64,000 bases of DNA. Origin: Luteibacter yeojuensis (lineage in GTDB: Bacteria > Pseudomonadota > Gammaproteobacteria > Xanthomonadales > Rhodanobacteraceae). The position numbers were made by a program, and so were the translations under genes. The notes under the pieces were generated by a model. That model did no database searches and was not told where the DNA came from. It was given only the letters and a program-made list of their open reading frames with translations. The stretch lies in contig NZ_JAAQTL010000001.1 in NCBI RefSeq assembly GCF_011742875.1, positions 1,240,001-1,304,000 on the forward strand, written 5' to 3'. Below are positions 40,052-53,541 of the stretch, piece after piece. Within the stretch, counting starts at the first letter, position 1. The number at the start of each line of letters is the position of its first letter.

Positions 40052-40102
40052 GGCCGGGCGAGCGCAATGAACCGATGGCACAACGACACCGCTCGCCCGG
40101 CC
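40052..40102 (-). promoter_or_regulatory. Expression-platform hairpin of the Mn riboswitch
   Basis: A perfect 13-base-pair stem (40052-40064 with 40090-40102, arm GGCCGGGCGAGCG) between the aptamer and the exchanger start. No T-tract follows, so control may be by masking the start region or by Rho rather than by intrinsic termination. Confidence 0.6.
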
Positions 40103-40111
40103 CGGGTGAGC

Positions 40112-40252
40112 ATGTCGATGGCCAAAGGTCTCGCCGGGCGGGCGGCGCGTCCTGCAGCGCCGTTGCCGTTCGCGCCATGGGGTCGTTAGACCGCCAAGTC
40201 TGTTGACGCGAACTCCTCAGGGGGAACGAGGATGGCTACTCCCCAATGACAT
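40112..40252 (-). promoter_or_regulatory. yybP-ykoY manganese riboswitch aptamer
   Basis: Read on the minus strand, the conserved parts occur in order: GGGGAGTAGCC (near 40244-40234), CGCGTCAACAGACTTGGCG (near 40210), and GCGAGACCTTTGG (near 40134-40122). A closing helix ATGTC/GACAT joins 40248-40252 to 40112-40116. These are the signature loops of the yybP-ykoY family, which binds Mn2+. It lies upstream of the CaCA exchanger and is transcribed with it. Confidence 0.92.
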
Positions 40253-40295
40253 CGGCGCGAATCTTAACACGGCTTCGAGGTTTGGGTAGGCGCAC

Positions 40296-48062: not shown

Positions 48063-48692
48063 TCAGCTGCGGATCAGCCCGCGCTCCTGCGCCATCCGGT
48101 AAAGATCCAGCTCCGATCCCGCGTTGAGCTTGTTCATCACCGCGGCACGGTGGATGTAGATCGTCTTCTGCCCGATGCCCAGTTCCGCCGCCACCTGCTT
48201 CGGCGCGCGGCCGATCGCCAGCAGCAGGAACACCTCGCGCTCGCGGGCGGTCAGCCGGTTGAACGGATCGAGGTCCGTCGTGGGCCGGCCGGAGCGGCGC
48301 TCGCGCAGGTCCGAACTCAGGTATTGATCGCCGCCGAGCACGGAACGCACCGCCGCCACGAGCTCCTCCGGCGCCACGCCCTTGGTGACGTAACCGCGCG
48401 CACCGCGGCGTAAGGCTTCCGAAACATAAGGCTCGCCGTCGTGCATGCTCAGCACGACGATCCGCATGTCGGGCGCGATGCTCGCGAGGTGTTCGATCAG
48501 CGGAAGTCCGCTGCCGTCGGGCAGCGACAGATCCACCGCGACCAGGTCGGGCCGATGCTGCGTGACCGCCTCCACCGCCTCGTCGGCGTTGCGGGCTTCC
48601 GCGACGACGTCCAGGTCGGGTTCCAGCTCGATGAGGCGCTTGAAACCCTCGCGAACGATGGCATGGTCATCTACTAGGACGATTCTTGGCAT
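48063..48692 (-). CDS. NarL/FixJ-family response regulator (UhpA-like)
   Basis: A 209-residue regulator. The receiver domain (about 1-118) has Asp8/Asp9, phosphoacceptor Asp54 in VAVDLSLPDGSG and Lys104. The LuxR-type DNA-binding domain (about 145-205) contains LTAREREVFLLLAIGRAPKQ. The ATG at 48692 is the natural start. It is divergent from the histidine kinase gene with an 87-base gap, so the two probably form a two-component pair controlled from a shared promoter region. Its targets are unknown. Confidence 0.94.
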   Translation of the reverse strand: MPRIVLVDDHAIVREGFKRLIELEPDLDVVAEARNADEAVEAVTQHRPDLVAVDLSLPDGSGLPLIEHLASIAPDMRIVVLSMHDGEPYVSEALRRGARGYVTKGVAPEELVAAVRSVLGGDQYLSSDLRERRSGRPTTDLDPFNRLTAREREVFLLLAIGRAPKQVAAELGIGQKTIYIHRAAVMNKLNAGSELDLYRMAQERGLIRS

Positions 48693-48779
48693 GGGTGGAA
48701 TGTAGCAGGCTCTCCCGACGCATGCGTATGGGTGCGTAAAACCCGCCGAAGCCGCATACCCGCCGTGTACCATTCCGGC

Positions 48780-50399
48780 ATGCGCTTATCTGGCTCTTCC
48801 CGCTTCGTCGGTCCCCTCATCGCCCTGGCTTATGCCGCCACCTGGGTGATGCTGTGGCCGACCGAACAGCCGTATTGGGTCCTGCCCTTCGGCCTGCGTT
48901 TCGGCGCCCTGCTGCTCACCCGCAGCCGCGACTGGTTCTGGATCCTGGGCGCGGAGATCGTCGCCAGTGCCTTCTGCGAGTGGCGCAGCGGCCTGCCCAT
49001 CGGCGGCGCCGGCTTCGTGCTCGGCGACGCGCCCGAGCCGCTGATGGTGGCCGCATGCCTCTGGCTGCTGCGCCGGGCCCATCTCCATGCCAGCCTGAAT
49101 ACCCCCGAGGACGTGGCCCGCCTGCTGCTCTCGGCCATGGTCACGGCCACGGTGGCGACGGCCGGCAATGCCGCGATGATGGCCTCCATGCATCCCGCGG
49201 CTCCCGTGGAAATGCTGGGCACCACCTTCGGCAGCGACCTGCTCGGCAACTACCTGGGCGTGCTGCTGGTGGTGCCGGTGATGATCCTGGTCTTCCGCGA
49301 GCGACCCACGCAGGCCTCGCTGGCGGAACTCCTGCTCGACGGCCTGCTGGTGATGCTGCCCTCGCTGGCCATCCTCATCACCCTGGCCGAGTACTCCCCG
49401 CAACCGCAATTCGCCCGCGTGCTTTCGCTGGCACCGGTGCTGTTCTTCGCCTTCCGCCACGGTTGGCGCGGCGCCGGCCTGGCGATGCTGATCACCAGCG
49501 TGGGCCTCAACGTGACCGAGGACATGATCGGCCGCGGCGCGCCCACCGCCGCCGCCCACCTTTTCCTCGCGGTGGCCGGTACCGGCACGCTCATGCTCGG
49601 CGCCGCCACCGACGCCCTCCGCCGCAGCAGCGAGCGCGTAGCCCAGCAGAACACCCACCTTGCGGCGGCCAACCAGCGTCTCGACCAGTTGGCCCGGCAG
49701 TTGCGCGACGCCGCCCGAGGCAATCTCCAGGCCGAGGAAAACCTGCGCCGCCACATGGCCGCCGAACTGCACGACGAGCTGGGCCAGAACCTCACCGCCA
49801 TCCAGACCCACCTGAAGCTGGCCCAGACGCGCCTGGGCAGCGCGGGCCTGGACGACATCGGCATGTCGATCAACGGCATCCTCGGACACATGCGCAAAGC
49901 CCTGCACCGAATGCTGGACAGCCTGCGTCCGTCGGTGCTGGACGAATTCGGCCTGTTGCGTGCGCTGGACGAAGGTCCCATCCGCGACATGCTCACCGCG
50001 GCCGGCATCACCTACGTGACCGACCTGCGCGGCGAACCACGCCTGCTCGACGACGACACGCTCACCGCCATCTATCGCGTCGTGCAGGAAAGCGCGACCA
50101 ACGTGGTTCGCCACTCCGGCGCCAGCCGGATGACCCTGCGCCTGCGTATCGGCGTGCGCGACAGCGGTCCGGTCGCCATCCTCGACATACGCGATAACGG
50201 CAACGGCCTTTCCTCCAATCCGCGGCCCGCCCGCACGGACGGAGGCGGTCGCGGCTTGCAGGGAATGAGCGATCGCATCACCGCTCTCGGCGGCCTCTTC
50301 CGCATCCGCCCGGAACCCGTGGGACTTCACCTTCGTGTGCTGCTTCGCAGCACAAGTATCGGATCCGGCATAGGAAATTTTCCAATACCGGGGCAGTGA
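48780..50399 (+). CDS. MASE1-like membrane sensor histidine kinase (UhpB-like)
   Basis: A 539-residue kinase with about eight membrane segments forming a MASE1-like sensor (about 1-285), a coiled linker, a HisKA_3 dimerisation domain with phosphoacceptor His331 in MAAELHDELGQNLTAI, and a HATPase_c domain (N box VVQESATNVVRHSG, G box GGGRGLQGMSDR). The ATG at 48780 follows from alignment to the first membrane segment; an upstream in-frame start at 48732 lacks support. It pairs with the divergent NarL-type regulator. The signal is unknown. A structured RNA begins just after its stop codon. Confidence 0.94.
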   Translation: MRLSGSSRFVGPLIALAYAATWVMLWPTEQPYWVLPFGLRFGALLLTRSRDWFWILGAEIVASAFCEWRSGLPIGGAGFVLGDAPEPLMVAACLWLLRRAHLHASLNTPEDVARLLLSAMVTATVATAGNAAMMASMHPAAPVEMLGTTFGSDLLGNYLGVLLVVPVMILVFRERPTQASLAELLLDGLLVMLPSLAILITLAEYSPQPQFARVLSLAPVLFFAFRHGWRGAGLAMLITSVGLNVTEDMIGRGAPTAAAHLFLAVAGTGTLMLGAATDALRRSSERVAQQNTHLAAANQRLDQLARQLRDAARGNLQAEENLRRHMAAELHDELGQNLTAIQTHLKLAQTRLGSAGLDDIGMSINGILGHMRKALHRMLDSLRPSVLDEFGLLRALDEGPIRDMLTAAGITYVTDLRGEPRLLDDDTLTAIYRVVQESATNVVRHSGASRMTLRLRIGVRDSGPVAILDIRDNGNGLSSNPRPARTDGGGRGLQGMSDRITALGGLFRIRPEPVGLHLRVLLRSTSIGSGIGNFPIPGQ

Positions 50400-50423
50400 A
50401 CGCTTCGTTACGATCCCATTATC

Positions 50424-50620
50424 GATGTGGGGGAGCCGCCGTCGAGAGACGGCGAGCCCGGGTCGGTCGTGGGGACGATCGACCCGATGAGGCGACAGGA
50501 TGTCAGCCTCGCCGGTACGACATGGTGGTCCGTGGACCAGCGAGCAACTCGCATTCCACGAGCCATGACGAAGCCGGATCAGCCGTCGGTGGACAGGAGT
50601 CCACCGACGGCGTTTTTATT
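50424..50620 (+). ncRNA. Structured small RNA with GGA loops, candidate CsrA/RsmA-sequestering sRNA
   Basis: About 195 bases between the kinase stop and the fur terminator with no coding potential I trust. In order they fold into these hairpins: 50438-50453 (GCCGTC-GAGA-GACGGC); 50460-50485 (11-bp stem, GGGG loop); 50489-50510 (stem with loop GGA inside ACAGGATGT, the optimal CsrA-binding sequence); 50526-50539 (TGGTCC-GT-GGACCA); and a terminator hairpin 50582-50611 whose loop is AGGA. Additional GGA triplets lie at 50432-50434 and 50574-50576. Repeated GGA in hairpin loops is the design of CsrB/RsmZ-type RNAs. The 5' end is not determined; a weak -10 (CATTAT, 50417-50422) is the only promoter hint. 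It could instead be a 3'-UTR of the kinase gene. Confidence 0.6.
50582..50616 (+). terminator. Rho-independent terminator of the structured RNA
   Basis: A perfect 13-base-pair stem (50582-50594 with 50599-50611), loop AGGA, followed by GTTTTT. Very strong. Confidence 0.93.
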
Positions 50621-50702
50621 TGGGGGCTCGAAACGCGCCCCCCTCATGCCGCCCGCCCCATCGGGCATCCCTTCCGCCCGCAGGCCATTCCTCCCGCCTC
50701 AC

Positions 50703-50730
50703 CTCATCCCTGCGAAAGCAGGATCCAGCG
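50703..50730. repeat. Short CCTGCGAAAGCAGG repeat
   Basis: A hairpin CCTGC-GAAA-GCAGG (50709-50722) followed by ATCCAGCG. Short elements of this form are common in intergenic DNA of Xanthomonadales; the core resembles the arms at 33002-33090. Confidence 0.5.
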
Positions 50731-50765
50731 CCTTCCCACCCGACAAGGGCCGCCTCCCCCAAACG

Positions 50766-50785
50766 AAAAAAGCCCCCGAAGGGGC
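50766..50785 (-). terminator. Rho-independent terminator of fur
   Basis: On the minus strand: stem GCCCC/GGGGC with a TTCG loop followed by a T-run (A-tract at 50766-50771 on the + strand), 26 bases after the fur stop. Confidence 0.85.
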
Positions 50786-50810
50786 CCGGTCAACCACTGG
50801 AAGAAACGCC

Positions 50811-51224
50811 TCACCGCTTCTTCTTGGGCCTCACATACAGCACCAGGCTGTGATCCTCGATCACATACCCATGCCGGTCGGCGATCTCGTGCTGGAGCCG
50901 CTCGATCTCCTCGCTCATGAACTCGATGACCTTTCCGCTGTCCACGTCGATCATGTGGTCGTGGTGCTTGCCGCGGTCCAGTTCGTAGACGGCCTGGCCG
51001 CCCTCGAAGTTGTGCTTCATGACGATGCCGGCCGCTTCGAACTGGGTCAGCACCCGGTACACCGTGGCAAGCCCGATGTCCTCCTGGTGCGAGAGCAGGC
51101 GCTTGTAGATGTCTTCGGCAGTAAGGTGGCGCTCCTCGGCCTCCTCGAAGATCTGCAGGATCCGCATGCGCGGGTGCGTGACTTTCAGGCCCGCCTTGCG
51201 GAGTTCTTTGGTTTCCTGGTCCAT
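50811..51224 (-). CDS. fur: Ferric uptake regulator Fur
   Basis: A 137-residue iron-responsive repressor. It has a winged-helix DNA-binding domain (about 1-85, TAEDIYKRLLSHQEDIGLATVYRV-type core) and a dimerisation domain with the metal-binding HHDHMIDVDSGKVIEF. The CxxC pair that binds structural zinc in E. coli Fur is replaced (DVDSG), and the protein has no cysteine at all. It is divergent from bamE, the arrangement known for fur and omlA in Xanthomonas. Its own terminator follows. Confidence 0.97.
   Translation of the reverse strand: MDQETKELRKAGLKVTHPRMRILQIFEEAEERHLTAEDIYKRLLSHQEDIGLATVYRVLTQFEAAGIVMKHNFEGGQAVYELDRGKHHDHMIDVDSGKVIEFMSEEIERLQHEIADRHGYVIEDHSLVLYVRPKKKR

Positions 51225-53149: not shown

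Positions 53150-53541
<392 letters not shown>

Follow-up and report, generated by a model that had tools for sequence, protein, structure and literature searches.

The window analysed here, a stretch of 64,000 nucleotides of Luteibacter yeojuensis DNA, contains a predicted small RNA gene of ~197 nt located between a histidine kinase gene and fur (Table 1). The limits of the RNA were taken from the conserved ATCGATG at its 5′ end and from the T-run of the terminator, and the stop codon of the kinase gene lies ~20 nt before it. An earlier note on this DNA had placed the RNA at 50424..50620; conservation and the -10-like TACGAT indicate that the 5′ end is better set near 50421. The window also holds tmRNA (ssrA; 53150-53541, + strand, Rfam 192.9 bits) and a yybP-ykoY manganese riboswitch (40060-40256, - strand, Rfam 63.8 bits).

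Table 1. Features of the RNA locus, numbered from the first nucleotide of the window.
Feature	Position	Strand	Basis or remarks
LuxR/NarL-type response regulator, MctR/UhpA-like	48063..48698	-	start codon inferred; divergent from kinase
Membrane histidine kinase, UhpB-like	48732..50399	+	MASE1, HisKA_3, HATPase_c
Conserved dyad TAGGAAATTTTCC	50371..50383	+	proposed response-regulator site, centred ~43 nt before predicted start
-10-like TACGAT	50409..50414	+	alignment
Small RNA gene, predicted transcript	50421..50617	+	alignments (n = 30), covariation, fold z
5′ GUGGGGGA	50427..50434	+	unpaired ~half the time; no variation among the 30 aligned copies
Hairpin 1	50435..50457	+	GAGA loop; stem covaries; loop without GGA in L. 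yeojuensis
Hairpin 2	50459..50486	+	GGGG loop; U-A closing pair; GGA partly exposed
Hairpin 3	50489..50510	+	GACAGGAUGUC; CsrB-type CAGGAUG element; small loop
Hairpin 4	50521..50567	+	long irregular arm; GCGAGCAACUCGC at its end
Terminator hairpin	50582..50611	+	GGAC-AGGA-GUCC loop, then GTTTTT; candidate CsrA site within terminator
fur	50811..51224	-	convergent downstream neighbour; context, outside the RNA

The region 50400-50640 (241 nt) folded with a minimum free energy (MFE) of -133.1 kcal/mol. Its shuffles had a mean of -96.74 (sd 4.22), which corresponds to z = -8.62, and 0 of 200 were equally stable. The earlier note had described five hairpins, two loops with exposed GGA, a GGGG loop followed by A, and a very strong terminator, and all of these were recovered. 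The terminator is a 13-bp stem with 10 G-C pairs, closed by the AGGA loop and followed by GTTTTTATTT. The mean unpaired probability over GGA was 1.0 in both hairpin 3 and the terminator loop. In hairpin 2, which carries the GGGG loop, the GGA was only partly exposed (0.67), and the value for the 5′ GGGGGA was 0.46. The GUGGGGAC of hairpin 2 was invariant across the 30 alignment rows.

Covariation was assessed on an alignment of 30 oriented copies (A3), from which the covariance model R1 was also built. The 42 pairs in five helices were paired in 97.8% of cells, and 21 of the 42 showed two-sided changes (shuffle mean 8.6; 0 of 500 shuffles reached 21; slid controls 0-6). Hairpin 4 entered this count with its distal GCGAG stem only, as the columns of its lower part align poorly. 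An outer helix proposed by RNAalifold (columns 2-12 with 89-97) is part of R1 and was left out of the pair count because it competes with hairpin 3. The helices contained 80 G-U cells versus 5 A-C cells, which places the RNA on the + strand. Judged by covariation and the terminator, 50421-50617 is almost certainly a conserved RNA gene. By its sequence it would be a stand-alone gene, given the terminator and the upstream dyad and -10 element at near-fixed spacing.

A DNA search of 61 genomes located the RNA in 31. This number includes L. yeojuensis itself and a weak match of 39 bases from outside the family, which is Rhodanobacteraceae by the named matches. Model R1 matched 145 of 233 family genomes (the 30 included), representing 18 of 26 genera. 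It also matched 97 of 398 genomes drawn from the order, and all 97 lie within the family. Opposite-strand matches in two genomes (G012 and G016) were weak and overlapped the RNA itself; second weak matches were found in two others (G142 and G143; E 1.2e-4 and 3.8e-4). The R1 searches used stricter filters, which lose weak matches, and the copies in genera g2 and g40 were missed, so diverged copies outside the family are possible. A pattern scan of named genomes returned 115 stretches. Dyella, Rhodanobacter, Frateuria, Fulvimonas, Oleiagrimonas and Pinirhizobacter were among the 80 of 115 listed, and some listed matches in unrelated groups presumably arose by chance. For the motif analysis we used 64 RNAs, comprising the 30 aligned copies, 20 distant members chosen by genus and 14 more; 56 came from the 145 R1-positive family genomes and eight from the R1-missed genera g2 and g40, where both ends of the RNA were placed by hand with short anchors.

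Rfam gave no CsrB, CsrC, RsmX, RsmY or RsmZ match, either in the whole window at the gathering threshold or over 50350-50850 up to E = 10. Six Rfam matches near the locus were rejected as chance-level; all lie on the opposite strand and none belongs to a Csr/Rsm family. Among the titles and abstract openings listed in literature searches, none described the RNA, which does not prove its absence from print.

The order regulator, kinase, RNA, fur was found in 19 of the 20 distant loci that were read. The best models for the regulator were MctR, UhpA, MadR and NarL, and its scores were below every cut-off among the 25 of 90 families listed. Kinase relatives (E 1e-40) occurred in 164 of 233 family genomes and in 143 of the 145 with an R1 match, the two exceptions being G193 and G194. 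The kinase was present without an R1 match in 21 family genomes. Thirteen of these belong to g2 and g40, and two (G204, G215) have kinase fragments at a contig start. The other six, from g9, g36 and g41, have weaker, non-syntenic kinases, some at partial loci, with no adjoining fur match and no such RNA visible by eye in the stretches displayed. Ten of the 13 g2/g40 genomes were read, and eight contained the RNA together with the dyad; in G163 the kinase pair had no fur, dyad or RNA adjoining it, and in G164 the contig ends there. Four members carry the RNA without an adjoining kinase (G193, G194, G210 and G211), and the kinase of G210 lies on another contig. When 151 genomes of the order were searched with the kinase, three outside the family matched at E 1e-50, with 31-39% identity.

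Upstream of the RNA, the dyad TAGGAA-N3/4-TTCY was present in 60 of the 64 members, and in 58 of the 60 the distance from its first base to the RNA 5′ end was 49-51 nt. In L. yeojuensis, the open frame of the kinase runs through it. The dyad was absent from L079, L209, L211 and L213, the first three of which (from G194, G193 and G210, respectively) have no adjoining kinase. We also observed that in some g42 genomes (L079, L209, L211) the RNA is kept by fur, the kinase is gone from there and the dyad is changed (TGGGAA... or further), as if these RNAs had been released from the regulator. The exact dyad occurs once in the L. yeojuensis genome, at the RNA, and one-mismatch sites number three more, versus one for the control. 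In its 13-base form, the dyad had 50 exact sites in 61 genomes, most of them at the RNA, versus three for the reversed pattern. Further TAGGAATTTTTCC sites at fifteen loci of relatives, and the three one-mismatch sites of L. yeojuensis, looked scattered, and no similar RNA was seen there by eye. A scan of 50200-50900 (+ strand) found no sigma-70 pair or -35 consensus, as expected for an activator-dependent promoter.

Related palindromes were noted elsewhere. At L226 (G100, g36), CTGGAATTTTTCCAG closely follows a related kinase fragment and precedes an apparent protein gene, and the RNA is absent. This palindrome fits a regulator-linked site, and paralogous pairs may carry such sites with other targets. 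At L233 (G007) and L235 (G001), which are from two species, TAGGAATTTTTCCTAGG lies upstream of what seems to be the beginning of a similar protein, possibly as a second, species-limited site.

Three GGAs of the L. yeojuensis RNA place two or more of their bases in a hairpin loop, compared with 0.82 in shuffled sequences (P 0.03, 200 shuffles). Among 636 background stretches of equal length from the window, 5 reached three hairpin-loop GGAs, and the reverse strand of the RNA locus had none. When a GGA was counted only if none of its bases was paired in the MFE structure, there were two, versus 1.07 in shuffles (P 0.29). In the same window, the tmRNA and the yybP riboswitch each contain two hairpin-loop GGAs. 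Taken alone, the GGA enrichment of this RNA is suggestive, and the case rests on conservation. The shuffle test was applied to 19 of the 64 RNAs. For hairpin-loop GGA, P was ≤0.05 in 12 and 0.055-0.085 in five, and in the other two (L019, L087) the number was not raised over shuffles; for fully unpaired GGA, P was ≤0.05 in only seven of the 19. Sequence by sequence, the excess over shuffles is modest.

The earlier note had named a lack of conservation of the GGA loops among relatives as an outcome that would refute it. The loops were kept, with at least three GGAs of mean unpaired probability >0.5 in 62 of 64 RNAs; the exceptions, L087 and L209, have one exposed GGA each. Conservation in the 30 rows was 100% for the GGGGA at the 5′ end, for that of hairpin 2 and for the terminator AGGA, and 90-100% per column for the AGGA of hairpin 3. 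Whether paired or not, CAGGA(U/A/C)G was found in 54 of the 64 RNAs and ACA(N)GGA(N)GU in 58. GUGGGGA was found in 56 of 64 and the 5′ GGGGGA in 30 of 30. The element GUGGGG(G)A occurs twice in the RNA (50427-50434 and 50469-50475) and is invariant in the 30-member alignment. CsrA binding alone does not explain these invariant elements, which are conserved beyond what it needs and may serve another ligand or take part in pairing.

In the diverged members that R1 missed, the helices turn over, and the GGA loops persist or arise at other hairpins. The eight g2/g40 RNAs have three or four exposed GGAs each. The 5′ hairpins of L217, L218 and L220 carry GGA, unlike hairpin 1 of L. yeojuensis, and the first hairpin of L220 contains CAACAGGAUGUUG. 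L205 and L219 carry CACAAGGACGUG, which has the ANGGAX form. The terminator loop of L206-L208 is CACGGAUC, and ACAUGGAGU or ACAAGGAGU is found in the terminator hairpin of L213, L214 and L086. The GGA of hairpin 3 is lost in L019 and L020; L087 has lost it from both hairpin 3 and the terminator, and its GGAUGGAUGGAUGG is present but unexposed in the predicted fold. The whole folds of g2 members were barely above shuffle stability (z -0.7 for L205 and -1.8 for L219).

The CsrB repeat of E. coli is reported to be CAGGA(U/A/C)G, and the SELEX consensus RUACARGGAUGU (PMC7652899). The earlier note had taken ACAGGAUGU of hairpin 3 for an exact match to the best-binding consensus. This is correct for the CsrB repeat and incorrect for the SELEX consensus, of which the R between ACA and GGA is absent. 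Moreover, hairpin 3 and the terminator loop both lack the N of ANGGAX. A missing N has been linked to 10 to 1000-fold weaker binding, and the RsmZ loops SL3 and SL4, also without N, have an affinity below that of ANGGAX (PMC4005645). The stems of the L. yeojuensis RNA are long, unlike those of most SELEX winners, which have ≤4 contiguous pairs (PMC7652899). We must also note that about four GGA sites are few for a CsrA sponge, which is a point against that reading.

The L. yeojuensis genome contains one csrA match, a 65-aa frame that starts with MLILTRRVGE and contains VHREEIY, and csrA was found in 58 of 61 genomes, L. yeojuensis included. Some family genomes have csrA but no R1 match (G023, G026, G030 and G035, of which G023 has a diverged RNA), and csrA therefore does not require the RNA. 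A GacA dyad lies upstream of Csr/Rsm RNAs. The GacA box, searched with ≤2 mismatches, gave 26 matches per strand in the L. yeojuensis genome versus 41 for the control, and none at the RNA. Two GacA-box loci, L248 and L249, were rejected as RNA sites; they hold protein genes. With the GacA model (cut-off 280), the regulator adjacent to the RNA scored 132.9 bits versus 227.9 at another locus, and none of 54 matches exceeded the cut-off. The higher-scoring locus (G000:C1:223476-224111) is the best GacA/UvrY-like regulator of L. yeojuensis, itself under the cut-off.

For what was computed here, namely the structure of the RNA, which is conserved and assigned to a strand, its terminator, the conservation of GGA loops with helix turnover, the spacing of the dyad and the co-occurrence of the kinase, a CsrB/Rsm-type role as a CsrA sponge is the best explanation, and we consider it highly probable on sequence grounds. 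The description of the RNA as CsrB/RsmZ-like in the earlier note is supported as a matter of design, with no recognised Rfam homologue; the adjoining two-component system and the promoter dyad, absent from that note, add the most information. The RNA is probably switched on by this system. We infer its transcription, its activation by the adjoining regulator, its binding of CsrA and the titration of CsrA in the cell. The MASE1 histidine kinase would sense a signal, leading to phosphorylation of the LuxR-type regulator, which would bind the dyad TAGGAAATTTTCC ~43 nt upstream of the start and turn on the -35-less promoter. The ~197-nt RNA would be transcribed independently, with Rho-independent termination. 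Its GGA motifs in hairpin loops would bind several CsrA/RsmA dimers, and CsrA would thereby be withdrawn from mRNA leaders.

The RNA could instead be a base-pairing (antisense) sRNA of the same two-component system, with G-rich elements that pair with C-rich mRNAs and GGA as an incidental feature. Some base-pairing sRNAs are indeed also CsrA ligands (PMC7652899), and the conservation of GUGGGGA and of the 5′ GGGGGA is stronger than a CsrA site needs. However, the loops look like the Shine-Dalgarno sequence itself rather than its complement, and ribosome sites would therefore not be masked by them. By eye, the alignments showed no conserved unpaired seed other than the 5′ GUGGGGGA. Diverged members also carry their GGA loops on other hairpins, which is what one would expect if a protein recognises the motif rather than if it acts as a seed, and we regard the antisense reading as improbable. 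CrcZ of Pseudomonas is a sponge RNA that adjoins CbrAB, the two-component system that should drive it, and carries CA-rich repeats for Hfq/Crc. The layout of the L. yeojuensis locus is that of CbrAB-CrcZ, and the RNA might be a sponge or decoy for a ligand other than CsrA, e.g. a structural relative of CrcZ. This is very unlikely: the CA-rich repeats were not seen by eye in the sequence, what recurs in the loops is GGA, and the genome contains csrA. It is scarcely credible that the stretch is no RNA regulator at all, be it an extended 3′ UTR or terminator belonging to the kinase gene or an element that acts as DNA. Against this, and in spite of the short distance from the kinase stop codon, the 5′ end is conserved and the conserved dyad and -10 keep a near-fixed distance from it. 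In genomes that lack the kinase or have it on another contig, the RNA is still found by fur. The covariation, too, is of the RNA type with strand bias.

Starting from the CsrA-sponge role, we lean, with some reserve, towards a self-contained CsrA-antagonist module. A dedicated non-GacA (UhpBA/MctSR-like) system would have the adjoining sponge RNA as the sole target conserved across relatives; the module would be kept in most sampled family genomes and act in parallel to the separate GacA-like regulator. If so, CsrA would receive input from a second, membrane-embedded MASE1 sensor via a private RNA. An RNA family with a non-GacA neighbour system would give one family of the order a CsrA antagonist and would demonstrate that other sensors, too, can come to control sponge RNAs. 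With GGA loops that move and a locus that mostly stays, the 64-member set helps to learn how CsrA sponges evolve, and the covariance model is a means of finding more members.

Among known two-component systems, the pair is closest in description to UhpBA and MctSR. The kinase scored 158.7 bits against UhpB (equivalog cut-off 408), and the regulator scored 166.6 against MctR and 147.1 against UhpA (cut-offs 300 and 258). All of these NCBIfam equivalog scores are far below the cut-offs, and the pair was not assigned to UhpBA by them. Unlike in UhpBA and MctSR, the neighbour here is an RNA gene. The locus shares with CrcZ a sponge beside a two-component system, and differs in its motif, which is GGA and not CA-rich. 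Within the order, RsmU of Xanthomonas campestris is also described as an RsmA-binding RNA; its long form contains four GGA motifs, and it arises by processing of the comEA-like XC1332 mRNA, from the 3′ UTR (PMC7694677). Going by this description, the L. yeojuensis RNA is distinct from RsmU: its upstream gene encodes a histidine kinase and not comEA, and it has a promoter-like region of its own. The same report states that no sequenced Xanthomonas genome has a significant homologue of the known CsrB/Rsm RNAs (PMC7694677). According to another study, GacA/S orthologues are present in every species whose RsmA-regulating RNAs have been validated experimentally, and other activators are predicted; its main text does not mention Xanthomonas, Xanthomonadales, Dyella, Rhodanobacter or Frateuria (PMC5568370). 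Compared with CsrB/CsrC of Enterobacterales and RsmX/Y/Z of Pseudomonas, the L. yeojuensis RNA has no covariance-model match, its adjoining regulator is not the best GacA/UvrY candidate, its dyad is TAGGAA-N3/4-TTCY, its usual place is between the kinase gene and fur, and it has the extra conserved GUGGGG(G)A. Like them, it is highly folded and terminated, with GGA in hairpin loops. It has the exact CAGGAUG element in common with CsrB, in an organism that has CsrA, and, as in the CsrB/Rsm systems, where a role of UvrY has been reported (PMC7652899), a dyad lies upstream, near a gene for a LuxR-type regulator.
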